Virus record (IMG/VR): IMGVR_UViG_3300023179_000058
Coordinates: 1 to 64,000 of that record
DNA from: a virus
Length of the DNA: 64,000 nt
Reading direction: 5' to 3' (one strand)
This document shows, piece after piece, positions 4,613-49,403 of this stretch. The notes under the pieces were generated by a model that made no database searches, was not told the origin of the DNA, and was given only the letters and a program-made list of their open reading frames with translations. Numbering within the stretch: the stretch's first letter is position 1; each line of letters begins with the position of its first letter. The translations under genes and the position numbers were made by a program.

Positions 4613-5236
4613 ATGATAATAACATTAAAACAATTAGAACAATTATTGCGCGGCAATGACCATATTTCAGAATGGCACAATTCATTGTCAATGTTTCTTC
4701 CTGAATATGAGATTGATACAACAAACAGAATGGCTGCATTTATCGCGCAATGTTCACATGAATCTGGTGAATTCACTACGCTGAAAGAAAATTTAAATTA
4801 TCGTTGGCAATCATTGCGAAAAGTTTTTCCTAAATATTTTTTTAACGATGCAATTGCACAAAAATATGCATCATTGCCCAACAAACAAGAAGCAATCGCA
4901 AATAGAATTTATGCAAATCGTATGGGCAATGGACCAGAAGAATCTGGTGATGGATTTAAATATCGTGGAAGAGGATTGATTCAATTGACTGGATATCAAA
5001 ACTATAAACGATTTGCAGATTCATTAGGAATTACGCCAGAGGAAGCATCCGAATATTTAGAAACTTTCGAAGGTGCAACTGAATCAGCATGTTGGTTTTG
5101 GAGTACAAACAATTTAAATCAATGGGCAGACGCAGGAGATATGATTACTTTAACAAAGCGTATCAATGGTGGCACAAATGGACTTGAAGATCGTATTCAA
5201 CATTATGAACATGCTCTACATGTATTGGAGAATTAA
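4613..5236 (+). CDS. GH19 chitinase-type endolysin
   Basis: The 207-residue product matches glycoside hydrolase family 19 endolysins. AAFIAQCSHESGEF carries the catalytic Glu near residue 50. YRGRGLIQLTGYQNY is the conserved substrate-cleft segment, and a C-terminal TKRINGGTNG loop is present. Such enzymes cut the glycan strand of peptidoglycan at lysis. There is no signal peptide, so export would need a holin. It sits in a lysis cassette with spanin candidates upstream and a two-helix membrane protein downstream. Confidence 0.92.
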   Translation: MIITLKQLEQLLRGNDHISEWHNSLSMFLPEYEIDTTNRMAAFIAQCSHESGEFTTLKENLNYRWQSLRKVFPKYFFNDAIAQKYASLPNKQEAIANRIYANRMGNGPEESGDGFKYRGRGLIQLTGYQNYKRFADSLGITPEEASEYLETFEGATESACWFWSTNNLNQWADAGDMITLTKRINGGTNGLEDRIQHYEHALHVLEN

Positions 5237-21249: not shown

Positions 21250-21299
21250 GTTGTAAAAAAACAACATCACTTGACAAGAGTGGTGAAGTTTGATAGAAT
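21250..21299 (+). promoter_or_regulatory. GTTG box plus sigma70 promoter for the tRNA array
   Basis: The palindrome GTTGTAAAAAAACAAC (21250-21265) is followed after five bases by TTGACA (21271-21276), a 17-base spacer and TAGAAT (21294-21299), nine bases before tRNA-Arg. The same box recurs upstream of most strong promoters at 31-43 kb. Confidence 0.75.
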
Positions 21300-21409: not shown

Positions 21410-21438
21410 TTGACAAGTCCTTGGACTTAGCGTAGAAT
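21410..21438 (+). promoter_or_regulatory. Second sigma70 promoter in the tRNA array
   Basis: TTGACA (21410-21415) and TAGAAT (21433-21438) are 17 bases apart, immediately before the boxB/boxA-like leader. A degenerate GTTG box (GTTGTAAAAATACAGC) lies at 21384-21399. Confidence 0.75.
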
Positions 21439-21453
21439 TGATTTCTGTTGTGA

Positions 21454-21497
21454 GTGATTCAGATAAGTCTGGATCACAAAAAGTTCTTTAACAATTT
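21454..21497 (+). promoter_or_regulatory. rRNA-type antitermination leader: boxB-like hairpin and boxA
   Basis: A 10-bp hairpin (GTGATTCAGA / TCTGGATCAC, loop TAAG, 21454-21477) is followed by AGTTCTTTAACAATTT (21482-21497). The latter nearly matches the boxA of proteobacterial rRNA leaders (TGCTCTTTAACAATTT). In bacteria boxA recruits NusB/S10 and makes RNA polymerase resist Rho. Position 12 bases before tRNA-Glu mirrors rRNA operons. Confidence 0.75.
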
Positions 21498-21508: not shown

Positions 21509-21584
21509 GCACCTATCGTCTAACGGTTAGGACGGCGCCCTTTCAAGGCGCAAACGGCGGGTTCGATTCCCCCTAGGTGTACCA
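21509..21584 (+). tRNA. tRNA-Glu(TTC)
   Basis: Acceptor GCACCTA/TAGGTGT, anticodon arm GCGCC-CTTTCAA-GGCGC, T-loop TTCGATT, encoded CCA. Its 3' end is also the start of the long terminal helix of the next structured RNA. Confidence 0.95.
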
Positions 21585-21800
21585 TATTAAAACGCATTGG
21601 GTTACCAAGCCAGTAGGTACCTTAGTAGAGAATTATTCCTAGTGACGGCTAGGCTCTGCTAAGACTACATGAAGCCTCCCGAGGGTGCTGGAACAACTTG
21701 GCAAGTAATGTGGTTGATAGACAAGTCCGTGGACGGCACGGTAGGGCAGGTTCAAAACTGTTTCTTCTATCAAACATCCTAATGCGTTTTAATATGGTAC
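21579..21800 (+). ncRNA. Structured spacer RNA R1 closed by a 20-bp perfect helix
   Basis: Bases 21579-21598 pair perfectly with 21781-21800. Inside are TTAGTAGAG/CTCTGCTAA enclosing a CCTAG-tgacgg-CTAGG hairpin, CCAAG/CTTGG, and TTGATAG/CTATCAA enclosing a GTCC/GGAC hairpin. This nested architecture without an ORF indicates a stable RNA of about 220 nt. The 5' arm includes the ACCA end of tRNA-Glu, so folding and tRNA maturation should compete. I do not recognise the family. Confidence 0.7.
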
Positions 21801-21950
21801 CATTTGTTAAGTGTTATCAAGGTATCGTGTATGGACGCATACACTATTCGGGTCAAAGCGGCCGGCGACTGATCCTGATATAACTGCTATCGGCTGTGGC
21901 ACGGAAGCACCGGACGCCTAAATTTAGCGGATAACACTTAACAAATGGTA
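21798..21950 (+). ncRNA. Structured spacer RNA R2 closed by a 21-bp perfect helix
   Basis: Bases 21798-21818 pair perfectly with 21930-21950, two bases before tRNA-Cys. Inside are a GTGTATG-gacg-CATACAC hairpin and weaker helices around 21865-21895. R1 and R2 are back to back and share the TAC at 21798-21800. No ORF or known RNA family is recognised. Confidence 0.65.
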
Positions 21951-21952
21951 AT

Positions 21953-22030
21953 GTGAGGGTGCCAGAGCGGTCGAATGGCGGAGCCTGCAAAACTCTTGTA
22001 TCGTGGGTTCGAATCCCACTCCTCACTCCA
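21953..22030 (+). tRNA. tRNA-Cys(GCA)
   Basis: Acceptor GTGAGGG/TCCTCAC, anticodon loop CTGCAAA, T-arm GTGGG-TTCGAAT-CCCAC, and U73 before the encoded CCA, as expected for tRNA-Cys. The last pair of the anticodon stem is C-A. Confidence 0.88.
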
Positions 22031-22040
22031 GAAGAATATT

Positions 22041-22129
22041 GGGTTCTGCCCCCTACGGCGGACTGTAAATCCGTTGGCATTGTTTTGTAGGGAAGTTGCC
22101 TCGTGGAGCGTTACCATCAGGACCCACCA
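22041..22129 (+). tRNA. tRNA-Tyr(GTA)-like RNA lacking a D-arm
   Basis: Acceptor GGGTTCT/AGGACCC with encoded ACCA, and a good anticodon arm GCGGA-CTGTAAA-TCCGT (anticodon GTA 22065-22067), give a tRNA of 89 nt, the usual class II length. Only ten bases separate the acceptor from the anticodon stem, so no D-arm can form. Instead CCCTAC (22051) can pair with GTAGGG (22087). The T-loop reads AGCGTTA, not TTCRANY. It is the only Tyr candidate in the array. Confidence 0.55.
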
Positions 22130-22251
22130 TAGTCACACCATCAAGGTGTGTCAATCCAGCAAAAAGTGCTGGCGTGTATAGCGGTGCATCAACGATGTAC
22201 TTTCGGTATCCGCGTAAGAGATACGGCTAAAGTTCGTAATGCCAAATATTT
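22130..22251 (+). ncRNA. Hairpin-rich spacer RNA R4
   Basis: The 122-base spacer between the Tyr-like RNA and tRNA-Ala has no ORF. It contains CACACC/GGTGTG (22134-22150), CCAGC/GCTGG (22156-22172), CATC/GATG and an ACTTT...GTATC/GATAC...AAAGT arm. AATGCCAA at 22238-22245 can pair with TTGGCATT at 22074-22081 inside the Tyr-like RNA, so the two may fold together. Confidence 0.45.
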
Positions 22252-22495: not shown

Positions 22496-22571
22496 GGTTC
22501 TAAAGTGTTCATGGACGCACGTTGGCTTGTCACGCCAAAAGAGTGGGGATCGTTACCCCCTAGAACCGCCA
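22496..22571 (+). tRNA. tRNA-Asp(GTC)
   Basis: Acceptor GGTTCTA/TAGAACC, anticodon arm TTGGC-TTGTCAC-GCCAA, G73, encoded CCA. The T-loop is ATCGTTA instead of TTCRANY, an oddity shared in part with the Tyr-like RNA. Confidence 0.88.
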
Positions 22572-22652: not shown

Positions 22653-22657
22653 ATTTT

Positions 22658-22712
22658 AGGATACTTTCAGCAATCAAATAACTTTACTGGTAATAAAGCA
22701 AAAGCGTATCCT
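22658..22712 (+). ncRNA. Small structured RNA A of a four-member family
   Basis: Terminal stem AGGATAC (22658-22664)/GTATCCT (22706-22712) is followed on the 5' side by TTTCAGCAATC. An inner CTTTA/TAAAG hairpin and an A-rich GCAAAAGC before the 3' strand complete it, then CTGTTATTTTA. The same architecture recurs at 26257, 26499 and 26631. Confidence 0.55.
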
Positions 22713-22722
22713 GTTATTTTAT

Positions 22723-22797
22723 TCCACAGTAGCACAGCGGTAGTGCAGTTGACTGTTAATCAATTGGTCGTAGGTTCGATCCCTGCCTGTGGAGCCA
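22723..22797 (+). tRNA. tRNA-Asn(GTT)
   Basis: Acceptor TCCACAG/CTGTGGA, anticodon arm GTTGA-CTGTTAA-TCAAT, encoded CCA. Its 3' end forms part of the closing helix of spacer RNA R5. Confidence 0.93.
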
Positions 22798-22965
22798 TTC
22801 GTGAGAGTCCGAAAGCGAGGTGCTTGACTAGCGACCTGACTGCCGAGGGAATACCACTCTCTATCGCCATCGATTTTACGGATTAGTCACCGACAGATGG
22901 TTTCAGATAGTAGATACCGCTTATCTAGGTATTAAACGGATATGGCAGTACTCTCACTAATGGCT
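22793..22965 (+). ncRNA. Structured spacer RNA R5 closed by a 16-bp helix
   Basis: Bases 22793-22808 pair with 22950-22965 with one mismatch. ACTGCC/GGCAGT, AATACC/GGTATT and AGATA-ccgct-TATCT helices lie inside. The helix runs from the 3' end of tRNA-Asn to two bases before tRNA-Met, so the whole spacer is one folded unit. No ORF seen. Confidence 0.6.
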
Positions 22966-26688: not shown

Positions 26689-26704
26689 GTTGAAAGGAAA
26701 TATC

Positions 26705-28126
26705 ATGACTACTTTTGTAGATGCAGTTGTAAACCAAGAAGCCCGTACCGAGAATGGTATGAAGGCTCGCAAGTCTATCGCCAACGCGGTTGTAGATTTG
26801 TTCTATAACGCTGGCGCAAGCCGCGGTAAGAACATTGTGCCAGCATTCTCTGCCGCAATGGCTGAGAATCGTGACCTTGCATTGCGTGTTGCCGCATGGC
26901 TCCGTGATGCGCGAGGTGGTGCTGGTGAGCGTCAATTGTTCCGCGATATTCTAGTGTACCTAGAAAAGAACGATACTGAAGCCGCAAAGGCTTTACTACG
27001 CAAGGTCCCAGAATTGGGGCGTTGGGATGACCTGTTTGTCTTTAATTCTAAAGACATGAAGAATGAGGCATACACTTTGCTTGGCGATGCATTGCGTTCG
27101 CGTAATGGACTTGCCGCTAAGTGGACACCTCGTCAAGGTCCTATCGCAGTTGAAATCCGTAACTTCTTTGGCATGTCTCCAAAGTTCTATCGTAAGTCCC
27201 TAGTCGAATTGACTAAGGTTGTAGAATCTCAGATGTGTGCTAAAGATTGGGACAACATCAACTTTAGCCATGTGCCTTCTGTTGCATCGGCTCGTTATAA
27301 GAAAGCATTCAATCGCAATACTGAAAAGTATGCGGAGTATGTGCAGTCTCTTGTAAAGGGTGACAATCCAGAAGTGAAGGTAAATGCATCCGTTGCATAT
27401 CCATACGATGTGCTTAAAGGTCGCATCGGACACTATGGCGTTACTTTTGACAAGACCGAATTGGACTTGATTCAAAAGCAATGGGAAGCATTGCCTAACT
27501 ATGTTGGCGATGCAAACATCCTCCCACTGGTTGATGTATCTGGCTCTATGTCTTGTCCAGCAGGAAAGAACACAAAACTTTCTTGCCTTGAAGTAGCAGT
27601 CTCTCTGGGATTGTATCTTGCAGACAAGAACACCGGAAAGTTCAAGGACACCTTCTTGACTTTCTCTAACAAGCCAGAGTTGTTGAATCTGAAAGGTAAC
27701 ATCAACCAAAAGATTGATCAAATGATCAAATCTAAGTGGGAGATGAACACCAACCTACATGCCGCATTCAAGAAAATTCTTGATGTTGCAGTAAAGGGTG
27801 GTGTGCCTCAAGAAGAAATGCCAGCAATGGTATTGATTTTGTCTGATATGCAGTTTGATCAATGCATGACCCATGATGATTCTGCAATTCAGATGATTCA
27901 ACGCAAGTACAAAGATGCAGGTTATGAAATGCCACAAGTGGTATTTTGGAACCTAAACGCATCGTACGGCAACGCGCCAGTCAAATTTGACAAAGGCGGC
28001 ACCGCTCTGGTGTCTGGCTTCTCGCCAGCGATTGTGAAGCCACTCTTGTCGGGAGACATTGATAACTTCACACCAGTATCGATCATGCTGAAAACCATCA
28101 TGGATGATCGCTACAAAGTTCTTTAA
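26705..28126 (+). CDS. Ro60/TROVE-related (DUF2828-type) RNA-binding vWA protein
   Basis: The 473-residue product has a helical-repeat N-terminal region with RDARGGAGERQLFRDIL near residues 67-83, a signature of Ro60-like DUF2828 proteins. A C-terminal von Willebrand A domain has an intact MIDAS: DVSGS (277-281), Thr349 in WEMNT and Asp391 in LSDMQFD. Ro60 family proteins form rings that bind misfolded RNAs and Y RNAs. AAAGGAAA precedes ATG 26705. The gene is preceded by three structured RNA elements and surrounded by tRNAs, which suggests RNA binding or quality control (inference). Confidence 0.8.
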   Translation: MTTFVDAVVNQEARTENGMKARKSIANAVVDLFYNAGASRGKNIVPAFSAAMAENRDLALRVAAWLRDARGGAGERQLFRDILVYLEKNDTEAAKALLRKVPELGRWDDLFVFNSKDMKNEAYTLLGDALRSRNGLAAKWTPRQGPIAVEIRNFFGMSPKFYRKSLVELTKVVESQMCAKDWDNINFSHVPSVASARYKKAFNRNTEKYAEYVQSLVKGDNPEVKVNASVAYPYDVLKGRIGHYGVTFDKTELDLIQKQWEALPNYVGDANILPLVDVSGSMSCPAGKNTKLSCLEVAVSLGLYLADKNTGKFKDTFLTFSNKPELLNLKGNINQKIDQMIKSKWEMNTNLHAAFKKILDVAVKGGVPQEEMPAMVLILSDMQFDQCMTHDDSAIQMIQRKYKDAGYEMPQVVFWNLNASYGNAPVKFDKGGTALVSGFSPAIVKPLLSGDIDNFTPVSIMLKTIMDDRYKVL

Positions 28127-47910: not shown

Positions 47911-48716
47911 TGATCGTTCTCTACGGGCATGGCTATGTTGCAGATTACATAGCCAAAGAAATGCATAAGCAATCATTTAAGTTTGTTCGCTTAACGCATC
48001 ATGCATTAGTACCTAAAGATGCAAAGTTTATTGTCAATGCCGCAGGCTTTACGGGCAACCCTAATGTAGATGCTTGTGAGGTTTTGCGTGATGAGTGCGT
48101 AGACGGAAACATTCGATGGCCACTTAAACTTGAAAGAATCGCAAGCCAAATTTCTGATATTCCAATTCTACACATTACTAGTGGTTGTGTGTATACTGGC
48201 TATGATAAAGAATGGACAGAAAATGATCCGCCAAACTTTACATTCAACAATGCTTCTTTCTATAGCGCATGTAAAGCATTGGCACAAGAACTACTATCGC
48301 CATATATGAACAAGTCATATTTGTTCCGAATTCGTATGCCATTTGGTCCGCACATTCACCACAAGAATCTATTGACAAAATATGAAAGATATGCTAAACT
48401 TGTAGACTATGAGAACAGCGTAACACAGGTTGAAGATTTAGCAAAATGTGTTTGTCATTTCATCATGATAAAACCAACATATGGAATTTATAATGTTTGT
48501 AATCCTGGCAGTACTAGCACGAAAGAAATTGTTGCAGAAATGGGGCTCCATAAAGAATGGATGACTCATGATGATTTTGCTAAGGCAGTAGTTGCGCCGA
48601 GAAGTAATTGTGTGCTAAATACTAAGAAGTTGGAAAGTGTGTATGCTATGCGGTATGCTGACCAAGCGGTAAGCGAAACAGTACGCACATACTTATCACA
48701 CAATCTTTACTTATGA
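47910..48716 (+). CDS. NAD(P)-dependent sugar epimerase/reductase (RmlD-like)
   Basis: The 268-residue extended SDR has YGHGYVADYI (nucleotide-binding loop), FIVNAAGFTG, ITSGCVYTG and YSACKALAQ (catalytic YxxxK near residue 114). RmlD-type enzymes reduce 4-keto sugars. It is separated from the deoxysugar operon at 52 kb by the tmRNA/iscU locus. Its last codons overlap the 5' end of the tmRNA acceptor piece. Confidence 0.82.
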   Translation: MIVLYGHGYVADYIAKEMHKQSFKFVRLTHHALVPKDAKFIVNAAGFTGNPNVDACEVLRDECVDGNIRWPLKLERIASQISDIPILHITSGCVYTGYDKEWTENDPPNFTFNNASFYSACKALAQELLSPYMNKSYLFRIRMPFGPHIHHKNLLTKYERYAKLVDYENSVTQVEDLAKCVCHFIMIKPTYGIYNVCNPGSTSTKEIVAEMGLHKEWMTHDDFAKAVVAPRSNCVLNTKKLESVYAMRYADQAVSETVRTYLSHNLYL

Positions 48717-48776
48717 CTGTATGAAGCAAAGAGAAAAGTGTTCTGGACGCGGGTTCGACTCCCGCCTGGTCCACCA
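48715..48776 (+). ncRNA. ssrA: tmRNA acceptor piece (permuted ssrA, 3' half)
   Basis: GGACGCGGG-TTCGACT-CCCGC is the conserved tmRNA T-arm, followed by acceptor strand CTGGTCC (48766-48772) and ACCA. CTGGTCC pairs with GGGCCAG at 49182-49188. GACTGT (48715-48720) pairs with ACAGTC (49224-49229) and TGTT with AACA, forming the tmRNA P2 helix. The true 5' end may lie slightly inside the upstream gene. Confidence 0.9.
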
Positions 48777-48793
48777 TAAGGAGATTTGTAAAC

Positions 48794-49180
48794 ATGGCAT
48801 ATTCCGATAAAGTAGTTGACCACTATGAAAACCCAAGAAATGTTGGATCGTTTGACAAGAACGATACTGATGTTGGTACTGGCATGGTTGGTGCTCCTGC
48901 TTGCGGAGATGTTATGAAACTACAGATAAAGGTTAATCATAAGACAGGTATTATTGAGGACGCCCGTTTTAAGACATACGGATGCGGGTCGGCAATCGCA
49001 TCAAGTTCTCTTGTCACAGAATGGGTCAAGGGCAAGACTCTTGACGAGGCGGCAGGTATTAAAAATTCTGAGATTGCAGAAGAACTCGCCCTCCCTCCAG
49101 TCAAAATACACTGTTCAATACTTGCTGAAGATGCGATTAAGTCAGCAGTAGAAGATTACCGAAAGAAAATCTCTTTATGA
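48794..49180 (+). CDS. iscU: IscU-like Fe-S cluster scaffold, nested in the tmRNA gene
   Basis: The 128-residue, full-length IscU has all ligands: Cys37, Asp39, Cys64, His106 and Cys107, with LPPVK (100-104) for chaperone binding. IscU assembles 2Fe-2S clusters with a cysteine desulfurase; no IscS is seen here, so it would use the host enzyme. TAAGGAG lies between the tmRNA CCA and the ATG, and the stop is one base before the tmRNA coding piece. NrdA/B, an RfbH-like dehydrase and possibly other phage proteins could need Fe-S or iron supply. Confidence 0.92.
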   Translation: MAYSDKVVDHYENPRNVGSFDKNDTDVGTGMVGAPACGDVMKLQIKVNHKTGIIEDARFKTYGCGSAIASSSLVTEWVKGKTLDEAAGIKNSEIAEELALPPVKIHCSILAEDAIKSAVEDYRKKISL

Positions 49181-49181
49181 T

Positions 49182-49403
49182 GGGCCAGTCATGGTTTCGA
49201 CAGGGCAAAGAGTAACAGAGTAGACAGTCCGGTAGATGACGACCGTAAATCGCATAAATAAAGTAAACGCAAACGATGAAAAGTTCGCATTGGCAGCCTA
49301 AACGCTGACTAGGGTTTCGGTGAGTTTCCTCGTAACAGAATAACTCACCACTAATTTTGGATAGTTGTAGTCGGCGGCAAAACCCGTTAGGCAGACCTAA
49401 CTT
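49182..49403 (+). ncRNA. ssrA: tmRNA coding piece (permuted ssrA, 5' half)
   Basis: GGGCCAG then CATGGTTTCGACAGGG is the tmRNA 5' domain. The tag frame GCA...TAA at 49269-49301 encodes ANDEKFALAA, preceded by the usual AAATAAAGTAAAC. Downstream helices GGTGAGTT/AACTCACC, GCTGACTA/TAGTCGGC and GTTAGG/CCTAAC fit tmRNA pseudoknots. No T-arm or CCA occurs downstream, so the 3' half is the piece at 48715. Rescues stalled ribosomes. Confidence 0.92.

Follow-up and report, generated by a model that had tools for sequence, protein, structure and literature searches.

The purpose of phage tRNA arrays and of the stable RNAs within them is a long-standing question, on which the locus described here bears: what is encoded between the tRNA-Glu and tRNA-Cys genes of an uncultured lake phage, and how would it be parted from the tRNAs? 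The window, the 64,000-base stretch of DNA that was analysed, is part of the 89,765-base IMG/VR virus record IMGVR_UViG_3300023179_000058, with T4-type genes and 26 tRNAs. The original prediction held that the spacer behind tRNA-Glu, here called R1, is an RNA closed by a perfect 20-bp helix that captures the tRNA 3' end, and that this helix resembles the processing stems of rRNA precursors, so that a stable RNA could be released while the tRNA end matures. The features of the tRNA-Glu/R1 segment, and the tRNA that follows, are:

21509..21584, + strand: tRNA-Glu(UUC) with encoded CCA (tRNA prediction)
21579..21601, + strand: 5' arm of the R1 closing helix; it begins with bases 71-76 of tRNA-Glu, six bases of which the last three are CCA
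21602..21777, + strand: R1 core (folding, conservation and covariation in relatives)
21605-21608/21698-21701, 21610-21613/21688-21691 and 21617-21625/21659-21668, + strand: R1 core helices
21639-21642/21649-21652 and 21727-21731/21737-21741, + strand: further R1 core helices
21714-21720/21767-21773, + strand: R1 core helix TTGATAG/CTATCAA
21778..21800, + strand: R1 closing helix, 3' arm; TGGTAC at its end, opposite the tRNA CCA
21953..22030, + strand: tRNA-Cys (tRNA prediction); an RNase P cut at its 5' end would set the 3' side of the neighbouring spacer, R2

The inverted repeat is present as predicted, with arms of 23 nt (21579-21601 and 21778-21800) separated by 176 nt; the 20 outer pairs are perfect, and a G.U and two G-C pairs continue the helix. 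The ACCA in the 5' arm is that of tRNA-Glu, positions 73-76, and every nested helix that had been listed appears in the minimum-energy fold of R1 (-86.9 kcal/mol, z = -6.3), which none of 200 shuffles equalled. When tRNA-Glu, R1 and R2 were folded together the cloverleaf was retained, the R1 helix began exactly at tRNA base 73 with the CCA paired, and the R2 helix lay directly 3' of the R1 helix (z = -7.9). As folded, tRNA-Glu, R1, R2 and tRNA-Cys abut in the transcript with almost zero free nucleotides. Within the window, a CCA-capturing helix was found at only two of the 26 tRNAs, tRNA-Glu (R1) and tRNA-Asn (R3, below), the other 24 being without one.

Relatives were taken from IMG/VR by way of two proteins and by way of RNA motifs; counts derived from motifs are lower bounds, and collection by pattern favours the motif searched for, not covariation outside it. 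At least 82 distinct homologs of R1 with a long closing helix were found. Across 35 representatives 96.4% of cells pair, a cell being a sequence and not an evolutionary event, and 29 of 49 pairs have changed on both sides; slid controls gave 5-11 such pairs and 27-39% pairing, and none of 500 shuffles reached the observed values. The core is multi-helix and keeps many invariant bases. R1 is a real structured RNA, with pairing conserved far beyond chance. Among the matches listed, 70 of the 82 homologs overlap a tRNA 3' end (Glu 62, Ile 4, Gln 4). R1 is also found elsewhere: before tRNA-Glu in L257, and, in L168, L198, L171, L180 and L165, at the head of the operon behind a promoter-like stretch, a hairpin and a boxA, a first-gene position that it also takes, with a degenerate boxA-like site, in L207 and L231. 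The loci without a preceding tRNA have a stem of their own, CACTATATG.../...CATATAGTG, in which nothing is tRNA-derived. Because R1 also occurs without a preceding tRNA, tRNA maturation is not the sole reason for it.

The adjoining spacer, R2 (21798-21950), has the same general design, as does a third behind tRNA-Asn:

21798..21818, + strand: R2 closing helix, 5' arm (inverted repeat, fold, covariation)
21819..21929, + strand: R2 core, with a GACG-loop hairpin (21827-21833/21838-21844) and a helix (21850-21855/21870-21875)
21861-21864/21891-21894 and 21898-21900/21916-21918, + strand: R2 core, continued, a pseudoknot and a helix
21930..21950, + strand: R2 closing helix, 3' arm; ends two bases 5' of tRNA-Cys
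22794..22964, + strand: R3, third CCA-capturing structured spacer, behind tRNA-Asn; arms 22794-22808/22950-22964

The R2 arms (21798-21818/21930-21950) form 21 perfect pairs, and at least 102 distinct IMG/VR homologs have the long closing helix. In 43 representatives pairing is 95.6%, with 32 of 40 pairs changed on both sides, and the pseudoknot itself covaries by GCCG/CGGC, GCGA/TCGC and GCAT/ATGC swaps. R2 is thus a second family of structured RNA like R1. Among the matches listed, 43 of the 102 homologs overlap a tRNA 3' end (Glu 33, Leu 7, Gly 2, Asp 1). Homologs of R3 were found in L102, L103 and L105. In two relatives the core has been lost from an intact stem behind tRNA-Glu, that of R1 in L096 and that of R2 in L045. 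Since the stem persists there without a core, and the R1 core persists elsewhere without a tRNA, the stem is useful without the core and the core without the tRNA.

Other elements were seen in the window and its relatives. A further structured RNA, R5 (L089, about 5065-5184; also L093, L006, L113 and L058), is closed by TTAGATTAGTTGACG/CGTCAACTAATCTAA and follows R1 or tRNA-Glu in relatives without R2 there. In the window, 22041-22129 is likely a tRNA-Tyr(GUA) that ARAGORN missed, with an apparent non-canonical T loop AGCGTTA, and 22496-22571 is a tRNA-Asp that the Rfam tRNA model does not pick up, with an apparent non-canonical T loop ATCGTTA. The spacer before tRNA-Ala (22130-22251) is 94-97% identical in close relatives, is present in more distant ones too, and is possibly another RNA. 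The spacer between tRNA-Met and tRNA-Asn (22653-22722), AGGATAC-TTTCAGCAA..hairpin..GCGTATCCTGTTATTTTA, is kept in dozens of related loci and gave a weak, sub-threshold Rfam match to Dictyostelium class I RNA (E = 0.003). A phage-encoded permuted tmRNA lies at 48682-49392 (RF04321, 127 bits; tag ANDEKFALAA), and permuted tmRNAs are also present in related contigs.

Upstream of tRNA-Glu the sequence resembles the leader of an rRNA operon:

21271-21299, + strand: further sigma-70-like promoter, before tRNA-Arg
21410..21438, + strand: sigma-70-like promoter TTGACA-17-TAGAAT, before tRNA-Glu (11/12 consensus matches)
21454..21477, + strand: boxB-like hairpin GTGATTCAGA-TAAG-TCTGGATCAC (fold)
21483..21493, + strand: boxA GTTCTTTAACA, which fits the gammaproteobacterial consensus GYTCTTTAANA (PMC5725501) at every position

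Promoter-like sites as a class were not enriched over shuffles. In several relatives a hairpin stands at the equivalent place upstream of boxA, and 41 of 127 boxA-like sites in relatives lie at most 100 nt upstream of a tRNA, where roughly 6 would be expected by area on our own estimate. Judged by sequence, then, R1 has a boxA leader upstream, and in both R1 and R2 a long conserved helix closes a structured RNA. These likenesses suggest that the phages build their tRNA transcripts on the plan of the rRNA operon, in which an antitermination leader is joined with a long processing helix. In rRNA precursors, 30S formation requires leader-trailer helices of more than 17 bp, boxA has been proposed as the anchor of the leader, and an RNase III site lies within the leader-trailer helix (PMC10250234). 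E. coli RNase III also contributes to the maturation of T4 tRNAs (PMC4810235). The comparison with rRNA precursor stems is strengthened by the covarying helix, its rRNA-helix-like length, the promoter-boxB-boxA leader and the retention of the stem in L096 and L045. As a device for tRNA maturation the stem is not the whole story, given the copies of R1 that have a stem of their own and no tRNA before them, and the 24 of 26 tRNAs in the window that have no stem.

RNase P cuts only at tRNA 5' ends, and a non-tRNA RNA behind a tRNA therefore needs another cut. No RNase III gene was found in the 31 contigs searched, so that for these phages the RNase III of the host would have to make it. Our main reading, to which we give a probability of roughly 55%, is that R1 is a self-standing ncRNA gene in an rRNA-operon-like tRNA operon, whose stem separates it from tRNA-Glu and frees a stable RNA. 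The order of processing that we infer is as follows. The promoter, boxB and boxA would start an antiterminated transcript. The long stem, running from base 73 and including the CCA, would provide the extra cut, host RNase III cleaving both of its strands; since the stem is fused to the CCA, only a short trailer would then remain on the tRNA and the RNA would be freed, and exonucleases would then trim the tRNA-Glu 3' end. R1 would come free as a compact molecule, about 180-220 nt long. A paired CCA would presumably be a poor substrate for RNase P and for the synthetase, so that release of the tRNA would wait on cutting of the stem. Free R1 might then act in trans as a stable RNA, perhaps likeliest on or with the translation machinery; that role is a low-confidence guess, made because R1 would be co-produced with tRNAs. 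A GGUUACC in R1 was considered as a possible partner for a 16S stretch and was dropped, a match of 7 nt being at chance level. That none of those contigs encodes an RNase III counts against the processing scheme, and so do two further points: most tRNAs mature without such a stem, and a general processing device does not predict the bias, described next, towards three kinds of tRNA.

Helices that include the CCA are widespread in the relatives. A scan of related contigs that covered 3779 distinct tRNA contexts found 288 such helices at a score of at least 12; with the downstream sequence shuffled the number was 8. The base opposite N73 shifts along with it (U73 faces A in 8/11, A73 faces U in 175/198). 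The helices are nearly absent if the next tRNA is within 15 nt; where the gap measures 61-400 nt, 244 of 1097 contexts have one. A common stereotyped stem, CCA-TATAAAAACACATT ... AGTGTGTTTCTATA-TGG, is shared by about 133 of the 288, and the R1 stem behind tRNA-Glu is a close variant of it. The stereotyped stems not belonging to R1 or R2 have a mismatch at the fifth pair past the CCA in 61 of 107 (most commonly A.C) and a G.U wobble at the thirteenth pair after the CCA in 72 of 107. The exact stem, enclosing a cargo of 30-60 bases, occurs in at least 120 stretches, and 111 distinct exact-stem elements carry 63 unrelated clusters of cargo in one exact 34-base stem. Folded alone, the short cargos exceed shuffles in stability by little (mean z -0.5), too little for us to claim them as structured RNAs. 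Several of the hypervariable cargos in related phages have T-arm-like hairpins, and one such hairpin, CCGGGTTCGAATCCCGG, lies within RNA C of T4 (rnaC, L385 1409-1547).

The tRNAs that bear these hairpins are far from a random sample. Contexts with a hairpin numbered 125 of 200 for Glu(UUC), 50 of 135 for Gln(UUG), 44 of 137 for Lys(UUU) and 11 of 124 for Phe, with some on Leu too, and none was found among 337 Met, 155 Cys, 148 Pro, 131 Val, 127 Trp and 116 His contexts. The Glu(UUC)/Gln(UUG)/Lys(UUU) bias has an odds ratio of about 25. When the loci were limited to those retrieved by protein and each distinct tRNA sequence was counted once, Glu, Gln and Lys gave 52/136 and the others 25/1036 (Fisher p 1.5e-34, a value that overstates independence because the sequences are related); with spacer length matched in those loci the figures were 47/77 and 20/304. 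Array position was rejected as the cause, the bias being independent of it. Glu, Lys and Gln tRNAs often have a weak end pair, G1.U72 or U1.U72; as a cause this too was ruled out, since tRNA-Val has the weak pair and never the hairpin, and within Glu the pair does not separate genes with a hairpin from genes without. tRNA-Glu, -Gln and -Lys normally share a thiolated wobble uridine. The link of these hairpins to Glu, Gln and Lys is strong.

A plain processing model predicts neither the isotype bias nor the hypervariable cargo, and both lend weight to a different account, in which the stem caps tRNA-Glu, -Gln and -Lys, the hidden CCA keeping part of each uncharged and the cargo being secondary; in its variants the capped tRNAs are decoys for host anticodon nucleases or a reserve released late. 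This account explains the bias better than the processing model does: it takes in the zero counts for Met, Cys, Pro and Val, the persistence of the bias in protein-only loci, at matched spacer length and regardless of array position, and the many unrelated cargos in one stem. We nevertheless consider it doubtful. In R1 and R2 the strong conservation of the core means that the cargo matters; arrays generally have few genes per isotype, which are needed working in translation; the related sequences are not independent events, and Phe and Leu carry some hairpins; and the modification and nuclease links are general background. Slightly more credible, though still tentative, is a view in which an isotype-specific 3' hairpin system of uncultured phages hides the CCA of tRNA-Glu, -Gln and -Lys with an invariant stem and a cargo that is either hypervariable or an ncRNA, R1 and R2 being the largest conserved cargos. 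If true, such hairpins would time the usability of these tRNAs or shield them against host tRNA-cutting defences.

R1 might instead act only in cis, as a pause, attenuator or terminator that is never a free RNA, a role that its place inside an operon and its stable fold would allow. We think this unlikely: no U-run follows the stem, no terminator-like site was called there on the + strand, R1 occupies several positions in operons, and its multi-helix core has many invariant bases. Behind several tRNAs an identical stem sequence flanks cargo of unrelated kinds, and the tRNA-Glu/R2 interval lacks R1 in L087 and contains it in the window. Both facts would also fit a mobile element, a cassette bounded by terminal inverted repeats that inserts downstream of tRNA genes and whose repeats have no role as RNA. 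Here the improbability is greater, as the CCA half of one arm is the tRNA's own, orientation and junction are fixed relative to the tRNA, and the R1 and R2 arms diverge by compensatory change, that is, they covary as RNA pairs. Least probable is that the Ro60-like protein whose gene lies in this array (26690-28126) uses R1 and R2 as Y-RNA-like scaffolds, an idea suggested by that protein and by the paired ends of Y RNAs: Rfam Y RNA models gave no match, and the DUF7788 family was present in only 1 of 26 contigs (95-355 kb, selected by R1- or R2-motif match), its absence from the other 25 largely ruling out such a partnership as a general role. The protein matches DUF2828/DUF7788, a family found in 668 isolated phage records, some labelled RNA-binding protein, and has what we take to be a HEAT-like plus vWA layout resembling Ro60.

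We return to the reading of R1 as a self-standing ncRNA gene, and ask how R1 and R2 compare with RNAs already described. With Rfam 15, neither was matched in the window or in nine related loci at gathering or relaxed thresholds; the search detected one GOLLD in the R2-bearing contig L369, and thus works. A blastn search of 50,697 phage records with three queries, by which distant relatives would be missed, gave no match, nor did R1 and R2 models in the stretches fetched from T4, S13, DLP_6, nt-1 and BUCT-ZZ01. Exact motif scans of GTDB representative genomes, which would miss variants, did not find R1 or R2, and no description of them was found in the literature searched, whose coverage was incomplete. 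R1 and R2 are therefore previously uncatalogued families, absent from Rfam and, within these searches, from cultured phages; they are sizeable families of structured RNA, common in the tRNA arrays of environmental phages. The stereotyped CCA stem was likewise missing from the fetched T4, S13, nt-1, DLP_6 and BUCT-ZZ01 stretches, where only two weaker pairings were seen.

The nearest parallel by position is with RNA C and RNA D of T4 (species 1 and 2), stable small RNAs that, like R1, stand directly behind a tRNA (tRNA-Arg) in a T4-type array. The likeness is one of position: RNA C and RNA D lack a long closing stem and do not capture a CCA, and kinship was rejected because the R1 and R2 models both fail on the T4 stretch L385. 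GOLLD and ROOL, like R1 and R2, are structured phage RNAs often found near tRNA islands (PMC12286853), but they are much larger, differ in sequence and fold, and their Rfam models match neither R1 nor R2. The Y RNAs of bacteria and phages (YrlA, Ro60 partners) share with R1 the paired ends of an ncRNA, and a Ro60-like gene lies nearby in the window; R1 and R2 differ in having no Rfam match to them and in occurring mostly without the Ro60-like family. The leader-trailer helices of pre-16S and pre-23S rRNA resemble R1 in having a long helix (>17 bp), an upstream boxB-boxA and co-transcribed tRNAs (PMC10250234), whereas the R1 stem encloses a short non-ribosomal RNA and incorporates the tRNA's own CCA.
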